From a virus: DNA of 20,404 nt. Below the pieces are notes generated by a model. That model saw only the letters and a list, made by a program, of their open reading frames with translations. It had not been told where the DNA came from and did no database searches. The translations under genes were made by a program, and so were the position numbers. Position 1 is the stretch's first letter, and each line of letters begins with the position of its first letter. Shown in pieces: positions 119 to 19,954 of this stretch. Location of the stretch: the IMG/VR virus record IMGVR_UViG_3300042146_000083, positions 1-20,404 of that record. One strand, given 5' to 3'.

Positions 119-1297
119 TCATCCCGTTTTCCTCCTCAGAATGGTCAATGCCGGCCCTCGGGAATCGGTGGTCGACGCTTTGTCTGCCGCTTCGATCAGT
201 TGTCCGAGCTCTGCAGTTGAATAGTGGCTCGTAATGCTGCCGTTCTTGTGCCCAAGCAATGCTTTGCGATCTTCCAGTGTCACGCCTGCTGCACGTAGCC
301 TTCTGCCAAAGGTGTGCTTCAGGTCGTGAACCCGGATCGAAATGAATCCAGGTAACGCCGGCCGGAGGTTCTTCTCCTGCCAAATCTTCCCGGCACGCAC
401 CCGGGCCTTCTTCCAAGCTGAATCATTCATCCTGTGCATTGCCGTGCCGTCATAAGGAAAAACCCATTCCTTGCTCTGGCCACGCTGCTTATCGATGACC
501 GATTTCGCAACGCTGTTCAGTACCACTAGGCGATCTTCGCCATTCTTTACGCCCGACGAAGCATTCCTGCCGCCAAAGCTGGCCGGTATCAGGAAAACGC
601 TGGTTTCAAGCTCGGGCACATAAATCTCCCAATCCCAGCGCAACTTGCAAACCTCCTGTTCCCGGCAGCCCGTGTTCACTTTGAATAAGGCCATCCGCTG
701 CAGGTGAGCCGGCAACTCAGCGAACAACACCGACTGCTCTTCCCACGAAAGTGGGTAGGGCTTCCTGCTGCTGATCTTCTCGTCGAGCATCCGGATCATC
801 GGTACCGACTCCAGCCACGGCCGTTTCTCCGCGTCGCGCCACTTCCTATGGCAAAGGTTCAGGATCCGGACGACTCGTTGCAGGGCAATATTCACTGTCC
901 GGTTCGAAACTCCAGGCTTGATCTTGCCTGTTGCGGTCTTGCTCGGCGCCTGACGATCCTTGATGAACTTGGCCAGAGTCCCGTCATCGATGTGCGTTAT
1001 CGGCAAATCACCGATGTACGGGTCGAGCTGCTCGATGTGTAGAGCAGACAATGCAATTGACGGCTGATCCTTGAATTCAACCAGGAAGCGGGTAGCGGCT
1101 TCACGCCAGGTTCGCACCTGGCGCACGCCATAGACCTTTTCCTGTCTGAGCTTTTCGAGCCGGTGAATCAGGTATTGCTCCGCTTCTTCCCTTTCGCTTG
1201 TTCCAGTGCTTTCCTGAAGTCGCTGACCTCTGACGACTTTGTCGATGTGCCAAATCCCGTTCCTCTCGTAGAGGCCGGACATTGTTTTTCGCGCCAT
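119..1297 (-). CDS. int: Tyrosine-type site-specific integrase
   Basis: A 392-aa phage integrase that would recombine attP with the tRNA-Pro attB site. The C-terminal catalytic domain shows R212 (GCREQE), the HDLKH box (H324, K327), H350 (LLGH) and the nucleophile Y359 (SHYS). The N-terminal part (about 1-60, then 80-160) fits the arm- and core-binding domains. The usual HxxR box has lysine at the R position, followed by GRRLR; I recall this HDLKHTF form in other Pseudomonas phage integrases, so it need not mean inactivity. The start ATG at 1297 has an AAGGAG ribosome site 7 bases upstream. The gene points at the tRNA and is last in the leftward operon. Its 5' end overlaps the upstream AlpA-like gene by 130 bp, so translation may be coupled or mutually limiting. 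Confidence 0.95.
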   Translation of the reverse strand: MARKTMSGLYERNGIWHIDKVVRGQRLQESTGTSEREEAEQYLIHRLEKLRQEKVYGVRQVRTWREAATRFLVEFKDQPSIALSALHIEQLDPYIGDLPITHIDDGTLAKFIKDRQAPSKTATGKIKPGVSNRTVNIALQRVVRILNLCHRKWRDAEKRPWLESVPMIRMLDEKISSRKPYPLSWEEQSVLFAELPAHLQRMALFKVNTGCREQEVCKLRWDWEIYVPELETSVFLIPASFGGRNASSGVKNGEDRLVVLNSVAKSVIDKQRGQSKEWVFPYDGTAMHRMNDSAWKKARVRAGKIWQEKNLRPALPGFISIRVHDLKHTFGRRLRAAGVTLEDRKALLGHKNGSITSHYSTAELGQLIEAADKASTTDSRGPALTILRRKTG

Positions 1298-3890: not shown

Positions 3891-3977
3891 CTTATTGAGT
3901 TCCGATTCTACGGGCACGAACCGGCCCTTCAACTCGGCAGACGCGGGTAGGTCAGGCAGCGGCTTGTAGCGCTTCAA
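3879..3977 (-). CDS. 32-aa ORF overlapping the methyltransferase end, likely truncated by moron 1
   Basis: A TTG codon at 3977 with AGAGGA four bases upstream opens a frame (MKRYKPLPDLPASAELKG, then RFVPVESELNK) that overlaps the last 26 bases of the methyltransferase gene. The sequence looks like a genuine small phage protein start. Its final codons (SFH and stop) are the reverse complement of moron 1's last codons, so the original 3' end seems to have been replaced when moron 1 came in. It may still be translated as a short peptide. Confidence 0.45.
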   Translation of the reverse strand: MKRYKPLPDLPASAELKGRFVPVESELNKSFH

Positions 3978-4875
3978 TTATCCTCTGACCTGCAAGTGGC
4001 GGTACCGCATTGCCTGCCATGTGCATGGTCAGCCGATGATTGTCCGGGCGCTTGGTGTCGGCGGGGAACGACATGGCGGCAAGCGCCTCGTTCGCCGAGA
4101 GCATTCGCATCTCATCGCCACGCACCAGGGCCCACCGGTCAAGCGTGGTGATGGTTCCGATCGGCCGGTTGATATCCCGCCCAGTCAGCCCTGAGCCTTT
4201 TCCGTAGTAGGGCATGATGAATCGTTCACCGAAGCGTTCTCGCCTGTTGCGCACGCGGTCAAGGGTGGCTTGGGCTCTGCCCGGTTTCTCTATTGGTGAC
4301 CAGCGGCCGGCGTCGAAGTCGAGGAAGCTGTCGGCCGGCACATGCTGGCGTCGGTGAAGCTGCAGCATTAGTGGCGCCTTGCTCCGAGTGCAGACCAGAA
4401 ACAGGCGCACGCGGTGCTGGGGCACGCCGAGATCAGCACAATCGACGACATGAGGTGCGATCATGTAGCCCAGCGCGGCCATCGCCTGTGACCAGGCGGG
4501 GTATAAAGCCCAGTCCGTGAACTCTTCGACATTCTCGACCAGCACCACCTCCGGCCGGTGGAACTCGGCGGCCGACACAACTGCCCAGGCTGTCGACCGG
4601 GATGAATCGTGCTGGGCATTACCGGACTTTTTGCCGCGTGCCTTCGAATGACCCTGGCAGCACGGCGAAGCCAGCATGATGTCGTGGGCCGGGACCTTCG
4701 ACCAATCCGCCTGGTGAAGGTCCTGGCAGATGTGGATGGCTTCCGGGTGATTGGCGCTGTGCCACTCAACCGCAACTGGCCAGTGATTAGCGGCCCAAAG
4801 AACGTCGATACCGGCATTGCGGGCACCGGTGGACCATCCGCCAAGACCGGCGAATAAATCGATTGCTGTAGGCAT
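3952..4875 (-). CDS. DNA (cytosine-5-)-methyltransferase, orphan
   Basis: A 307-aa C5-cytosine methyltransferase that transfers methyl from SAM to a cytosine in a target I cannot predict. Visible motifs: I, DLFAGLGGWSTG (6-17); IV, SPCCQGHS (70-77) with the nucleophile at C73; VI, ENV (114-116); VIII, QHRVR (153-157); X, GNAVPP (288-293). The target-recognition part lies between VIII and X (about 165-285). All key motifs are present, so it is probably active. No restriction endonuclease is adjacent, so it is an orphan enzyme of the kind phages use to hide from host restriction. ATG 4875 is chosen because AGGA precedes it and motif I then sits at the usual place; an ATG 23 codons upstream is unlikely. 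The base composition is GC-rich like the phage core, unlike the flanking morons. Confidence 0.93.
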   Translation of the reverse strand: MPTAIDLFAGLGGWSTGARNAGIDVLWAANHWPVAVEWHSANHPEAIHICQDLHQADWSKVPAHDIMLASPCCQGHSKARGKKSGNAQHDSSRSTAWAVVSAAEFHRPEVVLVENVEEFTDWALYPAWSQAMAALGYMIAPHVVDCADLGVPQHRVRLFLVCTRSKAPLMLQLHRRQHVPADSFLDFDAGRWSPIEKPGRAQATLDRVRNRRERFGERFIMPYYGKGSGLTGRDINRPIGTITTLDRWALVRGDEMRMLSANEALAAMSFPADTKRPDNHRLTMHMAGNAVPPLAGQRIIEALQAAA

Positions 4876-4920
4876 GGGGCATCCTATGCCGGGCCATGCC
4901 CGGTCGGTGGAAATTGAATA

Positions 4921-5103
4921 GTGGCGACAAACAGTCGAATTCAATTAATTGCGAAGGTGTTTGCGAGCTGGTGTGCCGATCCGCATCCTTTGTTTATCAA
5001 CAAGCTGGAGCGATACCGCATGAAGCGACTAACTGAGTGGGTAAACCTGTTCGCAGCAGTAATCCGCCTGGTTGATGTGATCAGGCGTACTGGATGGTTT
5101 TGA
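4921..5103 (+). CDS. Possible 60-aa small protein
   Basis: A rightward frame with a GTG start (GGTGGA about 10 bases upstream) in a stretch lacking a leftward gene. An internal ATG at 5020, with GGAG before it, would give a 27-aa amphipathic, tryptophan-containing peptide beginning MKRLTEWVNLFAAVIRLVDV. It may be a small membrane-active peptide or chance. It overlaps the leftward stub 5081-5137 by 23 bp, and at most one is likely to matter. Apart from this frame, 4876-5080 shows nothing else. Confidence 0.3.
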   Translation: MATNSRIQLIAKVFASWCADPHPLFINKLERYRMKRLTEWVNLFAAVIRLVDVIRRTGWF

Positions 5104-7927: not shown

Positions 7928-8590
7928 TCAGGCACTTAAACGGTAGGCTTGGGCGCGAGCTCGGTCCGCGACTTCATCAACCATGCGATTCAGTTCCAGG
8001 TTGAACTGGACGAGTTCTTTGTGCAGGTTGGCGATGTAGTCTTCGTCGCGGTAAATCGTCTCGATATAGAGCTGACACTCTTCATCTTGGCGAGAATCGA
8101 ACGACAGGAAGTCCCACCATTTCCGGCCAGTAACGAACATGCAGCCCTGCACTTGAGGCATATGTTCCTCGGGCATGCCTTCGAGCCATGTCTTGACGTG
8201 AATCGCCTCATTGAAAGGGCACTTCGACTCGGTGCCTCCGTCATCGTTGATCAGCCCGTCAGGCGAGCAGCCGAGCCAGTCGTACTTCGGGTGAACAATG
8301 AATTCCGACGGCATCACGATGTTGCCGGTCAGCATCTCGTAGGCGTCCTGAGCCTTCTGCTCTTCGGTGTGACCCCACTTCAGGGAGGCGCTGCTGACGT
8401 TGTGCTTGGACTTCTTCGCCAGTCGCTCGAAGCACAGCTCGCGCATGTATGAGGTACGAGCCCCCATAGGTTCGCGCTTCCCGTTTTTGTCAGCCTTCCC
8501 CCATGCCATCACGTCTTTAAACCGGCTGGCTGTCACTCGGCCTGATCGGTCTGCATGCCACTTTTCAGTGCCCTGAAGTTCCGCTCTCAT
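7928..8590 (-). CDS. YqaJ/lambda-exonuclease-type recombination nuclease
   Basis: A 220-aa nuclease of the PD-(D/E)XK fold, expected to degrade 5' ends of double-stranded DNA and load the annealing protein encoded just upstream. Visible family marks: RVTASRF (18-24); WGHTEEQKAQDAYE (72-85) with the conserved glutamates; GCSPDGLI (107-114) with D111; ESKCP (121-125), giving the E121-x-K123 pair; and MPQVQGCMFVTGRKWWDFLS (144-163), the Q-containing helix and following strand. All active-site residues are present and the length is normal. ATG 8590 follows GAGGAAG and overlaps the recT stop (TAATG), so the two genes are translationally coupled. This is the phage's Red-like exonuclease. Confidence 0.92.
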   Translation of the reverse strand: MRAELQGTEKWHADRSGRVTASRFKDVMAWGKADKNGKREPMGARTSYMRELCFERLAKKSKHNVSSASLKWGHTEEQKAQDAYEMLTGNIVMPSEFIVHPKYDWLGCSPDGLINDDGGTESKCPFNEAIHVKTWLEGMPEEHMPQVQGCMFVTGRKWWDFLSFDSRQDEECQLYIETIYRDEDYIANLHKELVQFNLELNRMVDEVADRARAQAYRLSA

Positions 8591-9579
8591 TACGCCGCTT
8601 CCTCGGCCTGAGACAGGCCGTCGTTGGTGCCAGTCATATCGGTAAAGTCGCCATCAACGGTTGCCGCCATGTTCTTGAGCGCTTCGTGACACTCCAGGCC
8701 GATCGCTGCACGCTGTTTAGGCTTGAGACCTGCCCAGGCTGTTGCATAGGCGTCGATGTCCTGCCGCTTCGCGACTACCAAAAGGTCTGCGAATACTCCG
8801 TCTATTTCCGGCGACGGGGATTTCGGACCGAACGAAACACCAGCAGCGGCAGCGGTGTTTGAAGCCTGCTTCGCGGGGGTGATATCGATTTCGCCGCCGT
8901 ATGAGTCTTCGAACTCATCGGGTGTATAGACGCCGAGGATGACGTCAGGGCAGAAGAGTCGAGCCCATTTTTTAGTCACCAAGTAGGCAATCTGCTGCTT
9001 CGGATCCTCCGCCCAAAGCGTGGAGTTCCGGGTGCGGACCTGAGTGAGCAGAAGCTCCAGAACGCGGGGCTCGTCTTCGCCTTTGAAGGTTGCCCAGACC
9101 TTGATCCCGAGACCTTTCTCGTCGTCAAAACTCCAGTCAGGAACGCGGTATTTCTTGAATTCGCCAGTGTCCTCGTCCTTCTTGGTTCTGCTGGTGACTT
9201 CGCGCATCTTCCCGATGACGTTTTCCCAGGCGCCGAACCATTCGAAGTTCAAACGACCCTTCACCGGTGCCTTGGAGGTGATCACTGCGTTGACGAGCTG
9301 CGCCTCGTAGCTCAACGCACCGCCGTTGACGATGAACGTCTTCTGCGCAACAGCGAATGGGTTCATCTGCCACTGCATTGCTTGTAGCACCACCGCCATG
9401 CAGTCAGCTTGATTGCCCTTCAAGTGCTTGGGAACTGTTGTCACGCCTTTCGACATCATCAGTGCGAGGTCGCTCATCGACTTCATGGTGCCAGGGTCGA
9501 GAATGAGCGCTGCCGCGTTGTGCGATGGGTCATGGTAAGTGGCGATACCCGTTGGTGCCTGGGTGTCTGAATCAGTCAT
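8590..9579 (-). CDS. recT: RecT-family single-strand annealing protein
   Basis: A 329-aa protein that would anneal complementary single strands during phage recombination together with the adjacent exonuclease. The core at about 30-220 shows the RecT-like arrangement: MKSMSDLALMMSKGVTTVPK; GNQADCMAVVLQAMQWQMNP; FIVNGGALSYEAQLVNAVIT; then WARLFCPDVILGVYTPDEFE. The C-terminal ~100 residues are low-complexity or acidic (PAKQASNTAAAA, then a helical segment), typical of the variable tail. ATG 9579 has GGAGAG upstream. Its pairing with a YqaJ-type nuclease makes the assignment firm. Confidence 0.92.
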   Translation of the reverse strand: MTDSDTQAPTGIATYHDPSHNAAALILDPGTMKSMSDLALMMSKGVTTVPKHLKGNQADCMAVVLQAMQWQMNPFAVAQKTFIVNGGALSYEAQLVNAVITSKAPVKGRLNFEWFGAWENVIGKMREVTSRTKKDEDTGEFKKYRVPDWSFDDEKGLGIKVWATFKGEDEPRVLELLLTQVRTRNSTLWAEDPKQQIAYLVTKKWARLFCPDVILGVYTPDEFEDSYGGEIDITPAKQASNTAAAAGVSFGPKSPSPEIDGVFADLLVVAKRQDIDAYATAWAGLKPKQRAAIGLECHEALKNMAATVDGDFTDMTGTNDGLSQAEEAA

Positions 9580-11733: not shown

Positions 11734-11844
11734 GGTCGCCTCCAGATCGGCGGATGTTGATCCAACAAAACTCGGCTGCACTCATCCATTCCGCTGGTTG
11801 CCGTTGGGCGCGGAGGGGAGTGCATGCGGGTGGTGTTGGGAGAG

Positions 11845-12015
11845 AGTTGCCCAGGCCCGCTACTGGCGACGGCCTGGGTTTGCAGCATCAGCAATGTGCG
11901 ATGACGTTCGGTTGGGCCTACCGGTCCCCGGTTGATGCGCGGTCACATCCTCGGCCCTGCTGTCCGCTACCTGTCAGGTGTTGGGCGCAGCCTTCAGGCT
12001 TACTGCGCCACACGG
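11845..12015 (-). ncRNA. Candidate structured RNA element in the leftward transcript
   Basis: The gene-free tract 11734-12131 contains four close inverted repeats: CCCAGGCC 11850-11857 with GGCCTGGG 11871-11878; ACCGG 11920-11924 with CCGGT 11928-11932; ACCTG 11969-11973 with CAGGT 11975-11979; and GGCGCAG 11984-11990 with CTGCGCC 12003-12009, which also holds an inner AGCC-TTCA-GGCT hairpin. No T run follows any of them, so they are not simple terminators. Strand is assumed leftward because PL transcription must cross here. Possible roles are an antitermination (put-like) element, a processing site or a small RNA. In the same tract GGAGG stands before a minimal ORF (TTG or ATG, ending at TAA near 12023). 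Confidence 0.4.
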
Positions 12016-12131
12016 GTGGTTCGCTTACTGGTACATGGCTGTCAATCCTCCGTGTTGGGTTAGCAGAACAATGCAGGTGGCCGGTATAAGCCGGAGATTC
12101 GTCCGCACTGGCTGTAGGGATGTGAGGTTCA

Positions 12132-12806
12132 TCAGCCGTGAGTAATCGATAGGTCGCTGATGATGCAGATCGAAGCGTCTTCAGGGTCGGTCGTTTCGGA
12201 GTAATCGATCTGGTTGTAAACACCGCCGTGGAAGGCGAGCGTTTTCGTGTCCCATGTACTGTCGAGACGCATGATTGCGGAGGTGGATTTGACGCCGTTG
12301 CAGCTCGCCGACACGGAAACGGCACCGCTTGAATTCGCGTGGATGTTGATTTTGAAAAGTGCACCCAGCGGCACGTTTTCCAGCACCGTCGAGTTGACTG
12401 GGTCGTCTTGCAGATAGCTCGACCGGAATCCCATGGTGATTTTTCCCTTGTTCCAAAACACCTTCACCGGGGGGCGTTCGGAACCCTGCACATGAATCTG
12501 GCTGATCACCACTTTCTGCAGCGAGTTGACTTTCGTCAGTCGCATTTCTTGCCGGTTCCAGTGATCGGCGGCGCTGGAGAACGGCCAGTAACCGGGTTCC
12601 TTCCACTCGCAGCGCGTGCGTTTTGTGCTCTTGCTTGAGGCACCGAGGGTTGGCGCCGTCATCTGCAGCGAACCATCTGGAAGCATCGAGATAACCTCTG
12701 GACATTCGAGCAGCGCTCGCCAACCGATGAGTTCAAGTGCGATGGGGTTGCTCTCGGAAATTGGAAGCGGAGTAGCGATGGTGAAGTTGCTGATGTCTAC
12801 AGTCAT
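12132..12806 (-). CDS. Polysaccharide lyase family 7 (alginate lyase)-like protein
   Basis: A 224-aa protein matching the size of a bare alginate lyase 2 domain, which cleaves alginate by beta-elimination. The three PL7 signature strands are present in order: TRCEWKE (64-70), equivalent to R(S/T)EL(R) with R65; SQIHVQ (102-107) with Q103 and H105; and FHGGVYNQ (192-199), equivalent to YFKAGVYNQ, with Y197 and Q199. The first Y and the K of that last motif are changed (A191, H193). The predicted catalytic set R, Q, H, Y is intact. There is no signal peptide or TM, so release would need lysis or packaging with the virion. ATG 12806 has GAGG eight bases upstream. It is the first gene from PL. 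Alginate is the exopolysaccharide of many Pseudomonas, so degradation of host capsule or biofilm is the natural reading. A non-catalytic jelly-roll role is the alternative. Confidence 0.8.
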   Translation of the reverse strand: MTVDISNFTIATPLPISESNPIALELIGWRALLECPEVISMLPDGSLQMTAPTLGASSKSTKRTRCEWKEPGYWPFSSAADHWNRQEMRLTKVNSLQKVVISQIHVQGSERPPVKVFWNKGKITMGFRSSYLQDDPVNSTVLENVPLGALFKINIHANSSGAVSVSASCNGVKSTSAIMRLDSTWDTKTLAFHGGVYNQIDYSETTDPEDASICIISDLSITHG

Positions 12807-13098
12807 GGTCTTTACCTCATCCCATTTATGTCGCCTGGTTGATTTCCCGTCTGGCCCTGTCGCCAAGACCAGCCAGTGAAATCTTGTTTTCCGCTGGCAC
12901 CGCATAGCGGGTCATTCACGCGGTTCGAGCCTTTCGCTCTAGTCAGCCGTCGAGGTGGTCCTCGCGTTGGTAGCCTTTCGGGGCTATCTGATCTCCGGTC
13001 GCCGTAGAGGCAGTGCCGTCGTTGTTCGTATTGCGCTGATTGTTAAAGAGCGGTCAGGCCCCTTGAGGCCCTTCGCAGTGGCTGTGTGTCGCTGCGAT
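12807..13098 (-). other. Long untranslated leader of the PL transcript
   Basis: About 290 bases separate the inferred PL start from the first gene. No convincing ORF lies here on the left strand. The tract holds boxA (13041-13052) and short hairpins, including TAGCC/GGCTA (around 12975-12990) and GAGC/GCTC (around 12927-12940). A leader this long with boxA is the place of a nutL-type antitermination region. I found no N-like gene nearby. Confidence 0.5.
13041..13052 (-). promoter_or_regulatory. boxA antitermination element
   Basis: On the left strand the sequence reads CGCTCTTTAACA followed by ATCAG. This equals the rRNA-operon boxA core (GCTCTTTAACA), to which NusB/NusE bind, and is longer than lambda boxA. 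It lies about 45-55 bases into the predicted PL transcript. A clear boxB hairpin next to it is not evident. Confidence 0.75.
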
Positions 13099-13104
13099 GG
13101 ATGT

Positions 13105-13146
13105 AAATTAACCGCCGGTTTCTTTGTCGTCAATACCGGCGGTTAA
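13105..13146. promoter_or_regulatory. PL promoter with operators OL1 and OL2
   Basis: Two operator copies, TTAACCGCCGGTTTC (13108-13122) and AATACCGGCGGTTAA (13132-13146), have centres 24 bp apart and match the OR consensus TTAACCGNCGGTTAA. A leftward promoter fits: -35 TTGACG (complement of 13128-13133), a 17-bp spacer, and a weak -10 TAATTT (complement of 13105-13110). One operator fills the spacer and the other overlaps the -35, so CI or Cro binding would block it. Confidence 0.75.
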
Positions 13147-13184
13147 TTTATTTTCCGTGCAAATCGAATATGCTTTGGTAAAAG

Positions 13185-13200
13185 CTGTACATATATACAG
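13185..13200. promoter_or_regulatory. LexA (SOS) box
   Basis: CTGTACATATATACAG is a perfect CTGT-N8-ACAG LexA site with an alternating A/T centre, as in strong Pseudomonas and E. coli SOS boxes. It ends 17 bases before the start of the DUF1654 gene, where LexA would block its transcription until DNA damage. Confidence 0.8.
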
Positions 13201-13217
13201 TTATCAGGGGGTAATTG

Positions 13218-13532
13218 ATGGGTAAGCCGCAGAAACAAAACCAGCAGTTGAAGGAAGAGCTGACAGGCCTTGAAAGGCTTGGCTTGCGCGTCTCATCGAT
13301 GATCAATCACCCGGTGGCACAGGTTCAGCGTTGGGTGACGATCCATCGCCTGGACACGGACGGGGAAAGGGAGTGGGAAGAGGTGATGGGGTTGCTATCC
13401 GAGACGGACGGCATAGACATGACGTTCAATGACGATGAGTCGGTGACTCTGAGGTGGGAAGCAAGCGCGGAGGAAGACCGCGTGATGGCGGTCGACGAGC
13501 TGGAAGCGGTGGAGGAGCCGGCGCCTTTCTGA
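13218..13532 (+). CDS. DUF1654-family protein, predicted SOS-induced
   Basis: A 104-aa protein from ATG 13218 with GGGGG seven bases upstream. After a polar N-terminus (MGKPQKQNQQLKEEL) it shows the DUF1654 pattern: LERLGLRVSSMINHPVAQVQ, a WVTIHRLDTD strand, WEEVMGLLSETDGI, and DESVTLRWE, with an acidic tail. DUF1654 is a small family found mainly in pseudomonads and their phages, and its function is unknown. A perfect LexA box lies immediately upstream, so host SOS should switch it on independently of PL/PR, as with phage genes that support induction. It is rightward, opposite to its neighbours, and lies between OL and the repressor operon. Confidence 0.85.
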   Translation: MGKPQKQNQQLKEELTGLERLGLRVSSMINHPVAQVQRWVTIHRLDTDGEREWEEVMGLLSETDGIDMTFNDDESVTLRWEASAEEDRVMAVDELEAVEEPAPF

Positions 13533-13581: not shown

Positions 13582-13818
13582 TCAGTCCTCAGGATCAATC
13601 TCTTCTTCTGGCTCACACCTGGCAATCAGCTCTGCAATAGTTTCGGCTATGAAGTCCGCATTTCCTGTAATCACGGCCAAGTGGTCCTCAATACGGTCGG
13701 ACACGTCCGTAGAGCCACGCTGATCGATCCAAATACCGATCTCTTCAACGGCACAACCAAGGGCCATGATGTTCTGGTTGAGGCGGTGGAGCAGGGCGGG
13801 GGTAAGGTCGTTTGACAT
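13582..13818 (-). CDS. Paralogue A of a tandem small-protein family
   Basis: A 78-aa protein, ATG 13818 with GGAGG upstream. Two predicted helices: LLHRLNQNIMALGCAVEEI, then IGIWIDQRG, and after a short linker DHLAVITGNADFIAETIAEL, with an acidic tail. The same plan (RxN..I.AL..AVEEI..WI.Q...I.D.L.....ADFI...I.EL) occurs in the two upstream genes, so the three arose by tandem duplication. A helical bundle, perhaps dimeric, is likely. Function unknown. Ends at the terminator 13540-13563. Confidence 0.7.
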   Translation of the reverse strand: MSNDLTPALLHRLNQNIMALGCAVEEIGIWIDQRGSTDVSDRIEDHLAVITGNADFIAETIAELIARCEPEEEIDPED

Positions 13819-13872
13819 GACGGGTCCTCCGGTTAAAAGGGAAGCATAGCGAGGAGGGAAGGGCCTAACAGG

Positions 13873-14085
13873 CTATCGATCATTCAACAACGAGGCGACA
13901 CCACGCGTGATGAACTCTAAGTTTTCATCCAGCTTGGTCAGTGAGTTGCGGATTCTGGTCCCGTCTTCAGCAGGACCATGCAGCTGTTCAATCCAAATGG
14001 ACAGATCCTCCACAGCCGCCGCTATGGCGAGTTGGTTCTCGTTGAGTTTGTAGATCAGAGAGGGGATGAGGTCGTTGGTCGGCAT
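13873..14085 (-). CDS. Paralogue B of the tandem small-protein family
   Basis: A 70-aa protein; ATG 14085 is preceded by AAAGGAGG, near the ideal ribosome site. The sequence MPTNDLIPSLIYKLNENQLA, then IAAAVEDLSIWIEQLHG and LDENLEFITRGVASLL follows paralogues A and C but is the most diverged of the three. It lacks its own strong terminator downstream, only a weak GCCT/AGGC hairpin near 13865, so it may be co-transcribed with A. Confidence 0.7.
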   Translation of the reverse strand: MPTNDLIPSLIYKLNENQLAIAAAVEDLSIWIEQLHGPAEDGTRIRNSLTKLDENLEFITRGVASLLNDR

Positions 14086-14127
14086 GGCTTGATCCTCCTT
14101 TGTGTGAGGAAAAGCGTAGCAGGCAGT

Positions 14128-14150
14128 AAAAAGCCCGCGCATGGCGGGCT
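14128..14150 (-). terminator. Rho-independent terminator
   Basis: Stem AGCCCGC / GCGGGCT with loop GCATG, followed leftward by a T run. It ends paralogue C and is a copy of the hairpin after paralogue A, so the duplicated unit includes gene plus terminator. Confidence 0.85.
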
Positions 14151-14169
14151 CATTTGTTCGGGATAAGGG

Positions 14170-14406
14170 TTAAGCCTCCAGCGCCATAACCACCTCAGGC
14201 TCACGCTCAGTTTCCAGCTCGGAAATCATGTCGGCTATGAAGTCGGCGCCTCCGGAAACCACGGCCAAGAGATCATCGATATGTTCAGACACTTCATCAG
14301 CGTCGCATTGCTCGATCCAGGCGGTGATCTCTTCTATTGCGCGACCGAGGGCCTCAATCTCTCGGTTGATGCGATGGAGCCGGGCAGGGTTACGTTCATT
14401 CAGCAT
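14170..14406 (-). CDS. Paralogue C of the tandem small-protein family
   Basis: A 78-aa protein. The second of two in-frame ATGs (14406) is chosen because AAAGGA lies six bases before it and touches the first ATG. The sequence has ARLHRINREIEALGRAIEEI, TAWIEQCDADEV and DLLAVVSGGADFIADMISEL, matching A most closely, with an acidic tail ending MALEA. It has its own terminator and a region of decayed similarity upstream. Confidence 0.7.
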   Translation of the reverse strand: MLNERNPARLHRINREIEALGRAIEEITAWIEQCDADEVSEHIDDLLAVVSGGADFIADMISELETEREPEVVMALEA

Positions 14407-14441
14407 GACCATTCCTTTGGTAAGTGCGCGAGACGGAAATG

Positions 14442-15836: not shown

Positions 15837-16739
15837 CTACCAAGGTAGTGACGTTATCGTATATCTAGGTCTGCCTTTTCCTACGGTTCTCGCGCTTAAC
15901 TTAATTGTAAATGCTTGATTAAGATGAGCATTGATCACTGATGGATTTTCAATTGTGGTCGCGATCCGCCCATGAATTACATTCCCATCCTGTGCTTTGA
16001 ACTCAAATCTACGCTCAGCGGGGAAAGCTCCCAAGAACTCCCCTCTAAAGTCCACATCCATCTCGGTGATATTCTCAACACTTAAGCGCGAACGGCTGAT
16101 ACGAACTTGGTCAACACTTGAGAATGAGAACACGTGGTCCTGCGTGGATACAGAGCAGAACGCTTCATAAGCAATTAACTTATCTAGGTACTCTGAAACC
16201 ATTGCTATAGCCCTAGTCCCGAGTCTAGACGCTGGCTCAGATAGTTCTTCATCGCTTTTTGTTGACGCTTCTAGCAACTCGGCGACTAATTCGAAAGCTT
16301 GTGAAACGGGTGTAGTACCTTCCAATGGTAGCTGTGCCTCATCCGTTAGCGCTTCTTCGAATTCAAAACCAAATGAACCTAACGCTGTACCGGTAATTAA
16401 TATTTGGTTTTGAGCTCTATTTGGGATTGGGCCGAAATCGTTTAGAACACCACTTATAGAAGCAGCAATAGCTGCAACTGCATCTGTAAATTTACTTGTG
16501 GCGACTGAACCGAATTCTGCAACTATCCCATGAACACCGCGTACAGGCGCGCCACGATAAGTAACGATTGCTTTCGCGGGAGCAAACGCACCCCGGCCAG
16601 GGTCGCGAAGCGTGGCTCCAATCTGATCCTTCCTAGACTGTAGAGACAGTCGAGTAAGGTTGCTGAGTCCCGGCTGCTGGGACATCCGGTCCAGAAAACT
16701 GATTTCTGCCTGTGCATGAGTGAATTCAGTTCTGTTCAT
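15837..16739 (-). CDS. Unknown partner of the nucleotidyltransferase
   Basis: A 300-aa protein with no family I can name. ATG 16739 has AGGAG eight bases upstream and overlaps the end of the nucleotidyltransferase gene by 14 bp, so the two are translated together. An N-terminal helical part (1-45) is followed by PAKAIVTYRGAPVRGVHGI (about 54-72), SKFTDAVAAIAASISGVLND, then GPIPNRAQNQILITGTALGS (102-121) with GFEFEEALTD, a helical centre (about 145-200), and a beta-rich C-terminal third (RISRSRLSVENITEMDVDFR; RRFEFKAQDGNVIHGRIATT). There is no HEPN Rx4-6H motif, no TM and no HTH. The DNA is AT-richer than the phage core. Its function is presumably tied to the neighbouring nucleotidyltransferase, as target, effector or antitoxin. 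Confidence 0.75.
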   Translation of the reverse strand: MNRTEFTHAQAEISFLDRMSQQPGLSNLTRLSLQSRKDQIGATLRDPGRGAFAPAKAIVTYRGAPVRGVHGIVAEFGSVATSKFTDAVAAIAASISGVLNDFGPIPNRAQNQILITGTALGSFGFEFEEALTDEAQLPLEGTTPVSQAFELVAELLEASTKSDEELSEPASRLGTRAIAMVSEYLDKLIAYEAFCSVSTQDHVFSFSSVDQVRISRSRLSVENITEMDVDFRGEFLGAFPAERRFEFKAQDGNVIHGRIATTIENPSVINAHLNQAFTIKLSARTVGKGRPRYTITSLPW

Positions 16740-17298
16740 TCTGGAGCTCCTGCTTGCGAATCACCAAAAGATCGGACGCATCCTGGTCTTGACCTGGTTC
16801 GAGCTTAACGCTCAGAAAGCCTTTCCACTGCTGTGATCTTCTATGTGACCACATACTGTACCAGTATGCTGCAAGCTCTATTAGTGTTTCAGGTGGCTCC
16901 GACAAAAGGGTAATGTAAAAATCTACCTTATAGGTGGCCTTAATCCAGGCGTTGTCTACGAGCTTTTGTATGTCCGGTTGGGTTAACGCTTGCTGAATTG
17001 CCGGAGAAACGTCTGCAAACGTCACCACATCCATGTCATTTGGCGCACGCCCCTCTAGCATCTCCACATTTTCCATGAAGCTTCCATCGAGCCACTGCGT
17101 CCCCGAGACAATGCCCATCCGATGCATTTCGGCTCGATGTGCTAGAAATCCTTCGAGCACCTCGCATCTCTCCAATGTAGTTGAAAAACGGTCAATGACC
17201 TGTCTTACATCGGTAGGGTAGGGTGCTCGTGTAGGTGATGTGGGGTCTTGCTCGTCGATCGGCGGTATTACACCTTGGTGATTCCAAAACGGTATCAA
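16726..17298 (-). CDS. Nucleotidyltransferase-fold protein (DUF6932-like)
   Basis: About 190 aa. The Pol-beta-type nucleotidyltransferase signature is visible: WLDGSF (G72-S73), then PNDMDVVTF with D88 and D90, and a third acid in YKVDFYITL (D126). All three metal-binding acids and the GS turn are present, so it should transfer a nucleotide to a protein or RNA. A conserved-looking YWYSMWSHRR segment follows (145-154). I recall uncharacterised proteins with this signature (IPFW..QG..PP start, DUF6932). Start: TTG 17298 has GGAGG at the ideal distance and gives MIPFW; ATG 17310 has none. It overlaps the 300-aa partner by 14 bp. It lies downstream of the repressor on the same strand, so it is probably expressed in the lysogen. 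Confidence 0.8.
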   Translation of the reverse strand: MIPFWNHQGVIPPIDEQDPTSPTRAPYPTDVRQVIDRFSTTLERCEVLEGFLAHRAEMHRMGIVSGTQWLDGSFMENVEMLEGRAPNDMDVVTFADVSPAIQQALTQPDIQKLVDNAWIKATYKVDFYITLLSEPPETLIELAAYWYSMWSHRRSQQWKGFLSVKLEPGQDQDASDLLVIRKQELQNEQN

Positions 17299-17325
17299 CG
17301 AAACCTCCATGCGCAACGTGAGAAA

Positions 17326-18020: not shown

Positions 18021-18896
18021 TTACACCAGGTGAGCGTTCCATACCAGAAGCACGCGTGCCTGGATGTAAGTCTCATCCGCTCTGATCGTTTGCGGTGGGT
18101 GCATCGTATTATCAGAAATCATTTTGATCTGATCATCGCCAACCCATTGGAGCCGCTTGATGTAGAGGTGGCCTTCCCAAGAGAACATGTAAATCCCGTC
18201 CCCCACGAATTCCCGAATACTGATGTCGACGAGCAGAGGGTCTCGATGCTTGATCGTGGGCGCCATCGACTGACCCCAGCCGGTCACCATCTTGAGATGG
18301 AAGTGTTCCTTGAACTCGACGCCCATCTCGCGCAGATGCTGAGGGCTTACCCTCACGTCCTGGAGTAATTCCGGGTAGTCGTGCGGTATTTGTCCGCCAC
18401 CCATGGCAGCGCGGACGTCGTAATGCGCGATCCATACTTCGTCTCCAACTACGCCGGGGCGGTAGTAATCGACCTCAATGGCGCCGCCGCCGCTATCTTC
18501 AGCCTCTGCGACCGCAAGTAGCCGTCTGCGGGCATCTTCTGAAAGTCCTTTTCCCTGCTTATCCAGCATCTGGCGAACCAGGTCAGCCGCCGACGAGGTC
18601 AAAACTGGTGTTCCTGTTTGGTCCGCAGCGCTTGTCAGCCCGCTTATCTCGTGCGCCAGCCTCTTGCTGAATTTCTCGATAGGTACTTCTAGAACGCGTG
18701 ATAGCACTGCGGCAAATTTCGCGTTCAGGGGATTGGTGCCGTTCAAGTACATCGCGACAGCGGCGGCAGATATATCAGCCGCTTCAGCAAGGCCCGCCTG
18801 GGTGAGTCCAAGGGCATTTTTTTTCGATACGAAAATCGCCTTGGCGGCGTCGCATTCAGCTTTCAGCTCTGGGGAAAGTTCTTTCTTTTTACTCAT
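18021..18896 (-). CDS. cI: CI-type phage repressor (HTH + S24 peptidase)
   Basis: A 291-aa repressor that keeps the prophage silent by binding OR and OL. The N-terminal lambda-repressor-like HTH lies at about 20-75 (LTQAGLAEAADISAAAVAMY is the HTH core), with a long linker (90-150) and a C-terminal S24 dimerisation/autoprotease domain. The catalytic serine is S210 in GWGQSM and the catalytic lysine K247 in LYIKRL. The usual Ala-Gly or Cys-Gly cleavage dipeptide is absent; the place where it is expected reads RAAMGGG (162-168). The PRM -10 is so close to ATG 18896 that the mRNA would be leaderless or nearly so, like lambda cI; no good ribosome site is present. This gene heads the lysogenic transcript. 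Confidence 0.93.
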   Translation of the reverse strand: MSKKKELSPELKAECDAAKAIFVSKKNALGLTQAGLAEAADISAAAVAMYLNGTNPLNAKFAAVLSRVLEVPIEKFSKRLAHEISGLTSAADQTGTPVLTSSAADLVRQMLDKQGKGLSEDARRRLLAVAEAEDSGGGAIEVDYYRPGVVGDEVWIAHYDVRAAMGGGQIPHDYPELLQDVRVSPQHLREMGVEFKEHFHLKMVTGWGQSMAPTIKHRDPLLVDISIREFVGDGIYMFSWEGHLYIKRLQWVGDDQIKMISDNTMHPPQTIRADETYIQARVLLVWNAHLV

Positions 18897-18904
18897 CCGT
18901 GAAA

Positions 18905-18972
18905 TTTAACCGTTGGTTAATTTATTTGCGTCAACCGGCGGTGTTGCTAGAAAACTAACCGGCGGTTAATAT
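18905..18972. promoter_or_regulatory. OR with three operators; PR and PRM
   Basis: Three copies of an operator have centres 25 and 24 bp apart: TTAACCGTTGGTTAA (18906-18920), TCAACCGGCGGTGTT (18931-18945) and CTAACCGGCGGTTAA (18955-18969). PR (rightward): -35 TTGCTA 18944-18949, 17-bp spacer, -10 TAATAT 18967-18972. PRM (leftward): -35 TTGACG (complement of 18929-18934) and a weak -10 (GGTTAA/GTTAAA) at 18905-18911. The cI-proximal operator overlaps the PRM -10 (OR3-like), the cro-proximal one fills the PR spacer (OR1-like), and the middle one touches both -35 boxes, as in lambda. Confidence 0.85.
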
Positions 18973-19004
18973 TGAGTCTGACAACACCATTCGAGATTTT
19001 CAGA

Positions 19005-19211
19005 ATGAAGCAGATCCCACTTACAGAGCTGGTTGCTACGAAAGGGCAGGCCTTTGCGGCTAAGTCTCTTCGGGTCAGCCCCGCTGCAATCAGTAAGGCC
19101 ATTTCCGCCGAGCGAAACATTTCAGTCATCTGCAATGAAGACGGGACTTTCGAAGCTCAAGAACTGAAGCCGTTTCCGGCCCAGGTAACACCGAAAAAAA
19201 CCGCCGCCTAA
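19005..19211 (+). CDS. cro: Cro-like repressor
   Basis: A 68-aa protein that closely follows lambda Cro. The N-terminus (MKQIPLTELVATKGQAFAAK) leads into a helix-turn-helix (SLRVSPAAISKAI, 21-33) and a beta strand (NISVICNEDGTFEAQELKPF). It ends PFPAQVTPKKTAA, strikingly like the lambda Cro C-terminus (KPFPSNKKTTA). It should bind the 15-bp operators at OR and OL, shutting PRM first. ATG 19005 is chosen over an upstream TTG (18972), which falls in the -10. A weak GAGA site precedes it. Its stop overlaps the stop of the converging 71-aa gene. Confidence 0.9.
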   Translation: MKQIPLTELVATKGQAFAAKSLRVSPAAISKAISAERNISVICNEDGTFEAQELKPFPAQVTPKKTAA

Positions 19212-19489: not shown

Positions 19490-19954
19490 ATGAAAACGCC
19501 CGTACTAGAGACCCGCCGCCAAGTGATGGCTGCCGTGTCAAGCGCCTTCCCAGGCGGCATGGACTGCGCCGCAGCTCGTCTTGGCATCAAGGACAAGCGC
19601 CTCGAAAACCAGATCTACGAGACGGCAGGCTGCAAGCCTTTGAGCGACACCGAAATCTTCGTCCTGGAAAGCGAGACCAAAACCGAGCACCTGCCGAATT
19701 ACATCTGCGCCATGTACGGCGGAGTGTTCGTTCGGATTCCCGAGGCGGGGCAGCTGGATAACGTCGACCTGTACCAGCGCTCACTGAATGCCTCGGCACA
19801 GCGCGGTGCATTGGATCAGATGGTGGCCGCCGCACTGGAAGATGGCGAGATCGATGCAGCAGAAGCCAAGAAGATTCGCGCTCTGCACGCCAAGTACCTG
19901 TCGTCCAGCCTTGAGGCTGTAGCTGCGGTGATCGAGCTGCACAAGGCCGGGTAG
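19490..19954 (+). CDS. CII/YmfL-family phage regulatory protein
   Basis: A 154-aa protein; ATG 19490 has AGGA close by. The N-terminal region (LETRRQVMAAVSSAFPGGMD, then AAARLGIKDKRLENQIYETA) matches the Phage_CP76/CII group, a regulator with a Cro-like HTH that activates establishment or repressor promoters. It continues KPLSDTEIFVLESETKTEHL, PNYICAMYGGVFVRIPEAGQ and a helical C-terminus (LDQMVAAALEDGEIDAAEAK). It follows cro in the PR operon, as lambda cII does, although it is not the lambda CII fold by sequence. Confidence 0.82.
   Translation: MKTPVLETRRQVMAAVSSAFPGGMDCAAARLGIKDKRLENQIYETAGCKPLSDTEIFVLESETKTEHLPNYICAMYGGVFVRIPEAGQLDNVDLYQRSLNASAQRGALDQMVAAALEDGEIDAAEAKKIRALHAKYLSSSLEAVAAVIELHKAG

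Follow-up and report, generated by a model that had tools for sequence, protein, structure and literature searches.

Polysaccharide lyase family 7 (PL7) is a well-known enzyme family, and what appears to be new here is a lineage of PL7 proteins, with no visible signal peptide, that occurs repeatedly under DNA-damage repressors. Its tie to CI or LexA is well supported by the sequence comparisons described below. One such gene is carried by the Pseudomonas prophage analysed here, and we read its product, with a probability of about 0.55, as an SOS-controlled alginate lyase carried as cargo, which would be induced by DNA damage, remain in the cytosol, be freed by lysis and loosen the alginate matrix.

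A PL7 enzyme encoded amid recombination and regulation genes

The window, which is the whole stretch of DNA analysed, is an IMG/VR virus record of 20.4 kb (20,404 nt) with genes for an integrase, an exonuclease, RecT, and CI, Cro-like and CII-like proteins. The following genes lie in its left part:

119..1297, minus strand: tyrosine integrase
7928..8590, minus strand: YqaJ/lambda-type exonuclease
8590..9579, minus strand: RecT-like annealing protein, farther down the left operon
12132..12806, minus strand: PL7 (Alginate_lyase2) enzyme, 224 aa, predicted catalytic set R65/Q103/H105/Y197

The PL7 reading frame runs from an ATG at 12806, with GAGG upstream, to a stop at 12132, and the relatives conserve this ATG as the start. 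A longer reading of 257 aa was rejected because its start is not conserved in the relatives. The Alginate_lyase2 model of Pfam covered the protein over positions 1-225 of 225 (E-value 4.4e-41) and scored 141.6 bits against a curated cut-off of 29.7 bits. The family phrog_31475, which is labelled 'unknown function', matched over the full length (1e-137, 457 bits) and gains a function-level name, PL7. NCBIfam had no model for the protein.

Among solved structures, PA1167 from P. aeruginosa (PL7, PDB 1vav) was the best sequence match, and about 24% was the highest identity to any solved alginate lyase. When a profile built from 26 relatives was searched against the PDB, it also matched A1-II' and 7nde, a fungal glucuronan lyase. 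Structure prediction from the single sequence gave a pLDDT of 34, and an AlphaFold2 model based on a 26-row alignment gave 88. A comparison of this model with solved structures by Foldseek and VIA-align placed PA1167, a single domain of about 222 aa, first, sharing the fold over its whole length (E-value 1e-16, Z 28, rmsd 1.8 Å, 206 residues) as well as the catalytic residues. All of the best PDB matches, with A1-II' and others following PA1167, were PL7 enzymes with the beta-jelly-roll. The original prediction of an alginate-lyase-like gene, which was to be checked by structure prediction against PL7 enzymes, was confirmed by the reading frame, the full-length profile match, the fold and the presence of the catalytic residues. 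Membership of the window protein in PL7 is well supported by fold, profile and catalytic residues, and alginate would be the probable substrate.

No signal peptide was visible by eye in the protein (N-terminus MTVDISNF...) or in its relatives, and the product is a single 224-aa domain with neither a tail fusion nor a position in a tail module. Both the missing secretion signal and the stand-alone domain had been noted from the sequence, and they stand. PADLOC, whose library would not list an unknown counter-defence protein, gave no match. The median dN/dS between copies of the gene was 0.048 (1853 pairs), which shows strong purifying selection.

The catalytic residues are invariant and the YFKAG strand is altered

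A1-II' from Sphingomonas (PL7; 2cws, 2zaa) shares the fold of the window protein (Z 25) at about 20% identity; it is an enzyme of bacterial alginate utilisation and not phage cargo. In profile alignments with A1-II', R65, Q103, H105 and Y197 aligned with the PL7 catalytic residues, with His191 and Tyr284 of A1-II' opposite H105 and Y197. The A1-II' chains in the PDB that carry the H191N and Y284F mutations differ precisely at these two positions, which fixes the catalytic assignment of H105 and Y197. A comparison of 127 distinct relatives showed that R65, E67, Q103, H105, K115, R128, Y197, N198 and Q199 are invariant. The four catalytic residues had been predicted correctly.

The same cannot be said of the claim that two residues of the YFKAG strand were changed, as the strand reads AFHGG and differs at three positions. 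The window protein departs from PA1167 in this strand, and a YFKAG-type strand is not a condition of PL7 membership. The telling change is from lysine to H193, which was found in 126 of the 127 relatives and is therefore a trait of the lineage. H193 may bear on the choice of substrate in this lineage.

The gene follows a left promoter with operators shared with cI/cro

The regulatory features of the window are as follows:

13104..13150: left operator and left promoter (PL), two CI-type operators with the core AACCGSCGGT, spaced by 24 bp, that surround a -35 hexamer (TTGACG) and a weak -10 hexamer (TAATTT)
13185..13200: LexA box CTGTATATATGTACAG, upstream of the divergently oriented DUF1654 gene and adjoining the left operator
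13215..13532, plus strand: DUF1654 gene, divergent to the PL7 gene and kept beside PL in such prophages and in chromosomal modules
18021..18896, minus strand: CI-type repressor (HTH_3 and peptidase S24)
18906..18969: right operators, with the left-operator motif present three times between cI and cro
18972..19211, plus strand: Cro-like repressor (phrog_35, weak)
19490..19954, plus strand: CII-like activator (Phage_CP76, phrog_101)

The operator found both at PL and between cI and cro was TTAACCGSCGGTTAA. The AACCGSCGGT motif formed two clusters (18906-18969 and 13104-13150) with a 24-bp spacing in both, and 9 matches were found in the window versus 2.2 expected. A promoter scan of the window found no consensus sigma-70 site and did not report the PL hexamers, which were recognised by eye around the operators (TTGACG at 13128-13133 and TAATTT at 13105-13110). 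The sharing of the operator between cI/cro and 13104-13150 identifies PL and supports the earlier proposal that the left operon begins with the PL7 gene, on a transcript that would be repressed by CI. The LexA-type box at 13185-13200 is perfect, and the DUF1654 gene, having a LexA box of its own, perhaps encodes an SOS-made antirepressor or modulator.

Several other genes were seen in the window, in which ARAGORN found no tRNA. Three paralogous small genes (78, 89 and 80 aa, one cluster) lie in a row on the minus strand at 13582-14412; the first matches phrog_12397, and each is followed by a GC-rich hairpin and a T run. Downstream of cI, at 15837-17316 on the minus strand, a phrog_18731 gene (300 aa, function unknown) accompanies a gene for a DUF6932 protein with a weak match to the PADLOC candidate defence family PDC-M63A, and the two are a possible defence pair expressed in the lysogen. 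The left part of the prophage also has a C5-cytosine methyltransferase gene with a TTG start (3952-4944, minus strand).

The leader contains a hairpin found before many unrelated genes

Three features flank or precede the PL7 reading frame on its own strand:

11850..12078, minus strand: conserved stretch 3' of the PL7 gene, possibly non-coding, part of a frame for variable cargo and in part present in phage Aurca01
12807..13095, minus strand: 5' leader of the PL7 mRNA, structured (z -2.8)
12841..12884, minus strand: 43-nt leader hairpin with a GCGA loop, common to many Pseudomonas phage contigs

The leader is about 290 nt long and folds better than shuffled sequences, as its z score shows. The 43-nt hairpin within it, GATTTCACTGGCTGGYCTTGGCGACAGGGCCAGACGGGAAATC, was nearly invariant in at least 120 stretches of IMG/VR contigs (for example L194, L229, L240 and L267), mostly 36-60 nt upstream of the start codons of diverse unrelated genes, and it was also found upstream of a chromosomal PL7 gene (L135). 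Its predicted fold has -26 kcal/mol (z -7.25), and it shows a few paired changes. Because the search pattern included the 3' half of the hairpin, the independent evidence is the conservation of its 5' half. No Rfam family matched the window, and the hairpin is absent from Rfam; it could act in antitermination or processing. Prophages that bear other genes at this place, such as Aurca01 and SC_8_H2H8, have the flanks of the PL7 gene (12836-13100 and 11800-12078) in common with the window. A piece of the 11800-12078 stretch also adjoins the chromosomal PL7 gene of L080.

Close relatives are found in Pseudomonas and distant ones in phages

Close relatives were found at 47 loci in IMG/VR and 34 in genomes of GTDB species. 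Their hosts were nearly all Pseudomonas, and the genome records found were all Pseudomonas. The lineage, which is distinct from the housekeeping PA1167 type, was present in 74 of 399 Pseudomonas genomes. No relatives were found on plasmids. One viral contig, L043, was set aside as independent phage evidence because its PL7 groups with a chromosomal module.

In a collection of phages only distant relatives were found, namely in Psa21 (60% identity), nine PpuM phages (36-40%) and AH02 (28%), where the gene adjoins those for an esterase and a holin. A free-standing PL7 gene is not unique to the window, as all of these phages have one. The gene of the jumbo phage Psa21, annotated as a polysaccharide lyase family 7 protein and not mentioned in the Psa21 genome paper, matches over its full length and is stand-alone without a tail domain, as in the window, but it lies in the tRNA cluster of a 305-kb phage with no CI or LexA context.

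Many chromosomal copies lie behind one of several kinds of DNA-damage repressor

Bacterial chromosomes were found to carry near-identical copies, placed behind other repressors that respond to DNA damage. The contexts of the lineage comprise prophages, chromosomal modules of a CI repressor and PL7 without other phage genes, and positions behind LexA boxes. Many chromosomal copies have a CI/S24 repressor no more than about 0.7 kb away, sometimes together with a divergent DUF1654 gene, in an otherwise ordinary neighbourhood where other phage genes are few or absent; at all loci where upstream repressors of this type were seen, they shared the strand of PL7. Three arrangements recurred: a repressor beginning 'MEFKERLK' with PL7 at a folE-like locus, a repressor beginning 'MKTRRPL' with PL7 at other places, and a putida-group module of repressor, DUF1654 gene with LexA box, and PL7.

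Predicted operators were found in these modules as well. In L070, of the putida type, four operators (TTAGCN5GCTAA) were seen, one pair at the repressor and the other at the PL7 promoter, and L063 and L051 had pairs of different operators upstream of PL7. The operator search in L049 was weak (2 matches, with 3 of 100 shuffles as good), and in L055, which is of the L049 type, the motif was also visible by eye at the repressor. An 11-mer was shared between the repressor and PL7 promoters at 31 of 81 loci, compared to 89 of 1046 controls; since this test misses degenerate palindromes, motif-specific operator searches were added.

Other chromosomal copies, which lack a repressor, had LexA boxes (CTGTATATACATACAG and similar) at -123 to -237. 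At six loci (L069, L127, L134, L141, L180 and L181) such a box preceded PL7 with neither a repressor nor DUF1654, and at L056 and L167 the box was farther upstream. Overall, a LexA-type box was present in 21 of 96 chromosomal upstream regions and in none of 100 shuffled sets. In a comparison made with equal detection on 3.7-kb Pseudomonas loci, a repressor or LexA box was found at 23 of 36 loci matched by the window protein's lineage (A1-matched), a few of which are themselves classical, and at 0 of 30 loci with classical PA1167-type PL7 genes, which differ in this respect from the window lineage.

An alignment of the leaders showed that a single leader follows at least three types of CI operator and one LexA promoter; the promoter has therefore been swapped while the leader and gene stayed. 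In a PL7 tree the contexts were scattered over several clades, with at least 4 label changes for the CI-linked and 3 for the LexA-linked context when counted by starred branches. Roughly one in two chromosomal copies in the survey had neither a repressor nor a LexA box, for example the DoxX-linked copies of L144-L163, so SOS control is frequent and not universal. No lysis gene was found in the chromosomal modules.

At the DoxX/PAS-kinase locus of L144-L163, we observed an upstream pair, CTTAAC-N5-CTTAAC, whose 11-bp step resembles that of a response-regulator site; a terminator-like hairpin comes after the pair, some 90 nt upstream of PL7.

The literature searched, outside which subscription papers mostly lie, described no SOS- or CI-linked alginate lyase. 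The SOS linkage and the domesticated PL7 modules thus appear to be undescribed within the papers searched.

Proposed release by lysis and its alternatives

Lysis release that loosens alginate is in our view the best mechanism, for which we infer the activity, timing, release and benefit. In the lysogen, CI bound to the two left operators would keep PL7 off. DNA damage would remove CI, and the PL transcript would then yield the PL7 enzyme first, via the structured leader. The enzyme would build up inside the cell because it has no export signal, until lysis by the phage, another prophage or a pyocin would free it. Freed enzyme could cut the alginate around the burst cell and let virions or kin leave the matrix. 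The chromosomal copies that are controlled by LexA or by a CI-type repressor of their own may perform the same service for the bacterium, using the lysis of other elements.

The occurrence of SOS-linked copies in chromosomes as well as prophages argues for a role linked to damage or lysis, and the chromosomal copies weaken an anti-host or counter-defence role that only a phage would need. The place of PL7 beside the esterase and holin genes of AH02 also speaks for release. On the other side, a protein that is of use only at lysis would not be expected in an early operon, and the chromosomal modules without a lysis gene count against release. The regulatory logic is like that of S-type pyocins and similar proteins, where DNA damage induces a protein without a signal and lysis frees it, but the product here is a polysaccharide lyase and not a toxin, and it would be repressed directly by CI or LexA. 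Phage depolymerases borne on tails likewise attack the surface or matrix polysaccharides of the host enzymatically. These are late, virion-bound, multi-domain proteins, whereas the window PL7 is free-standing behind PL.

The early position and the missing signal peptide in every relative inspected by eye would also suit an enzyme at work within a damaged or infected cell, either trimming alginate in the periplasm, to which it leaked or was let in, or cutting another anionic polymer in the cytosol, as part of a takeover or a stress response. Lambdoid phages often place host-interaction genes near PL, and the SOS-linked chromosomal copies do without lysis genes. We nevertheless regard this as unlikely, as to our knowledge no alginate polymer occurs in the cytoplasm, PADLOC showed no link of PL7 to defence or anti-defence families, and AH02 has its PL7 gene beside lysis genes.

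A slightly more doubtful alternative is that the PL7-fold lyase is likewise released by lysis but has another substrate, such as a glucuronan-like or other bacterial exopolysaccharide. The AFHGG strand with its fixed H193 could mean a different uronate polymer, which counts against the alginate-lyase reading; the PL7 beta-glucuronan lyase 7nde was among both profile and fold matches, and the identity to solved alginate lyases is low, as given above. Its nearest fold and profile matches are nevertheless bona fide alginate lyases, and nearly all hosts found belong to Pseudomonas, an alginate-making genus.

That a host gene sits in a variable cargo slot by chance without any phage role, as might be suspected from the other genes in the same flanking frame in Aurca01 and SC_8_H2H8 and the leader hairpin before many unrelated genes, is very improbable, and this passenger-gene idea was dismissed given the low dN/dS, the invariant catalytic set and the repeated placement behind SOS-responsive repressors compared to none in the classical PL7 control.

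Under release by lysis as the preferred reading, a wider proposal can be made, which we put forward tentatively as possible and below even odds: Pseudomonas may answer DNA damage, by a response not recognised before, with the dissolution of its alginate matrix. Signal-less PL7 from prophages and from domesticated chromosomal modules, driven by a CI repressor or LexA, would be made on SOS induction and, once freed by lysis, would serve phages and surviving kin alike as a common good by opening up the biofilm.

SOS-linked PL7 occurs both in prophages and in chromosomal modules of two or three genes with few or no phage genes. This pattern would connect SOS induction and cell lysis with the breakdown of the alginate matrix, and it poses a question that can be tested directly.
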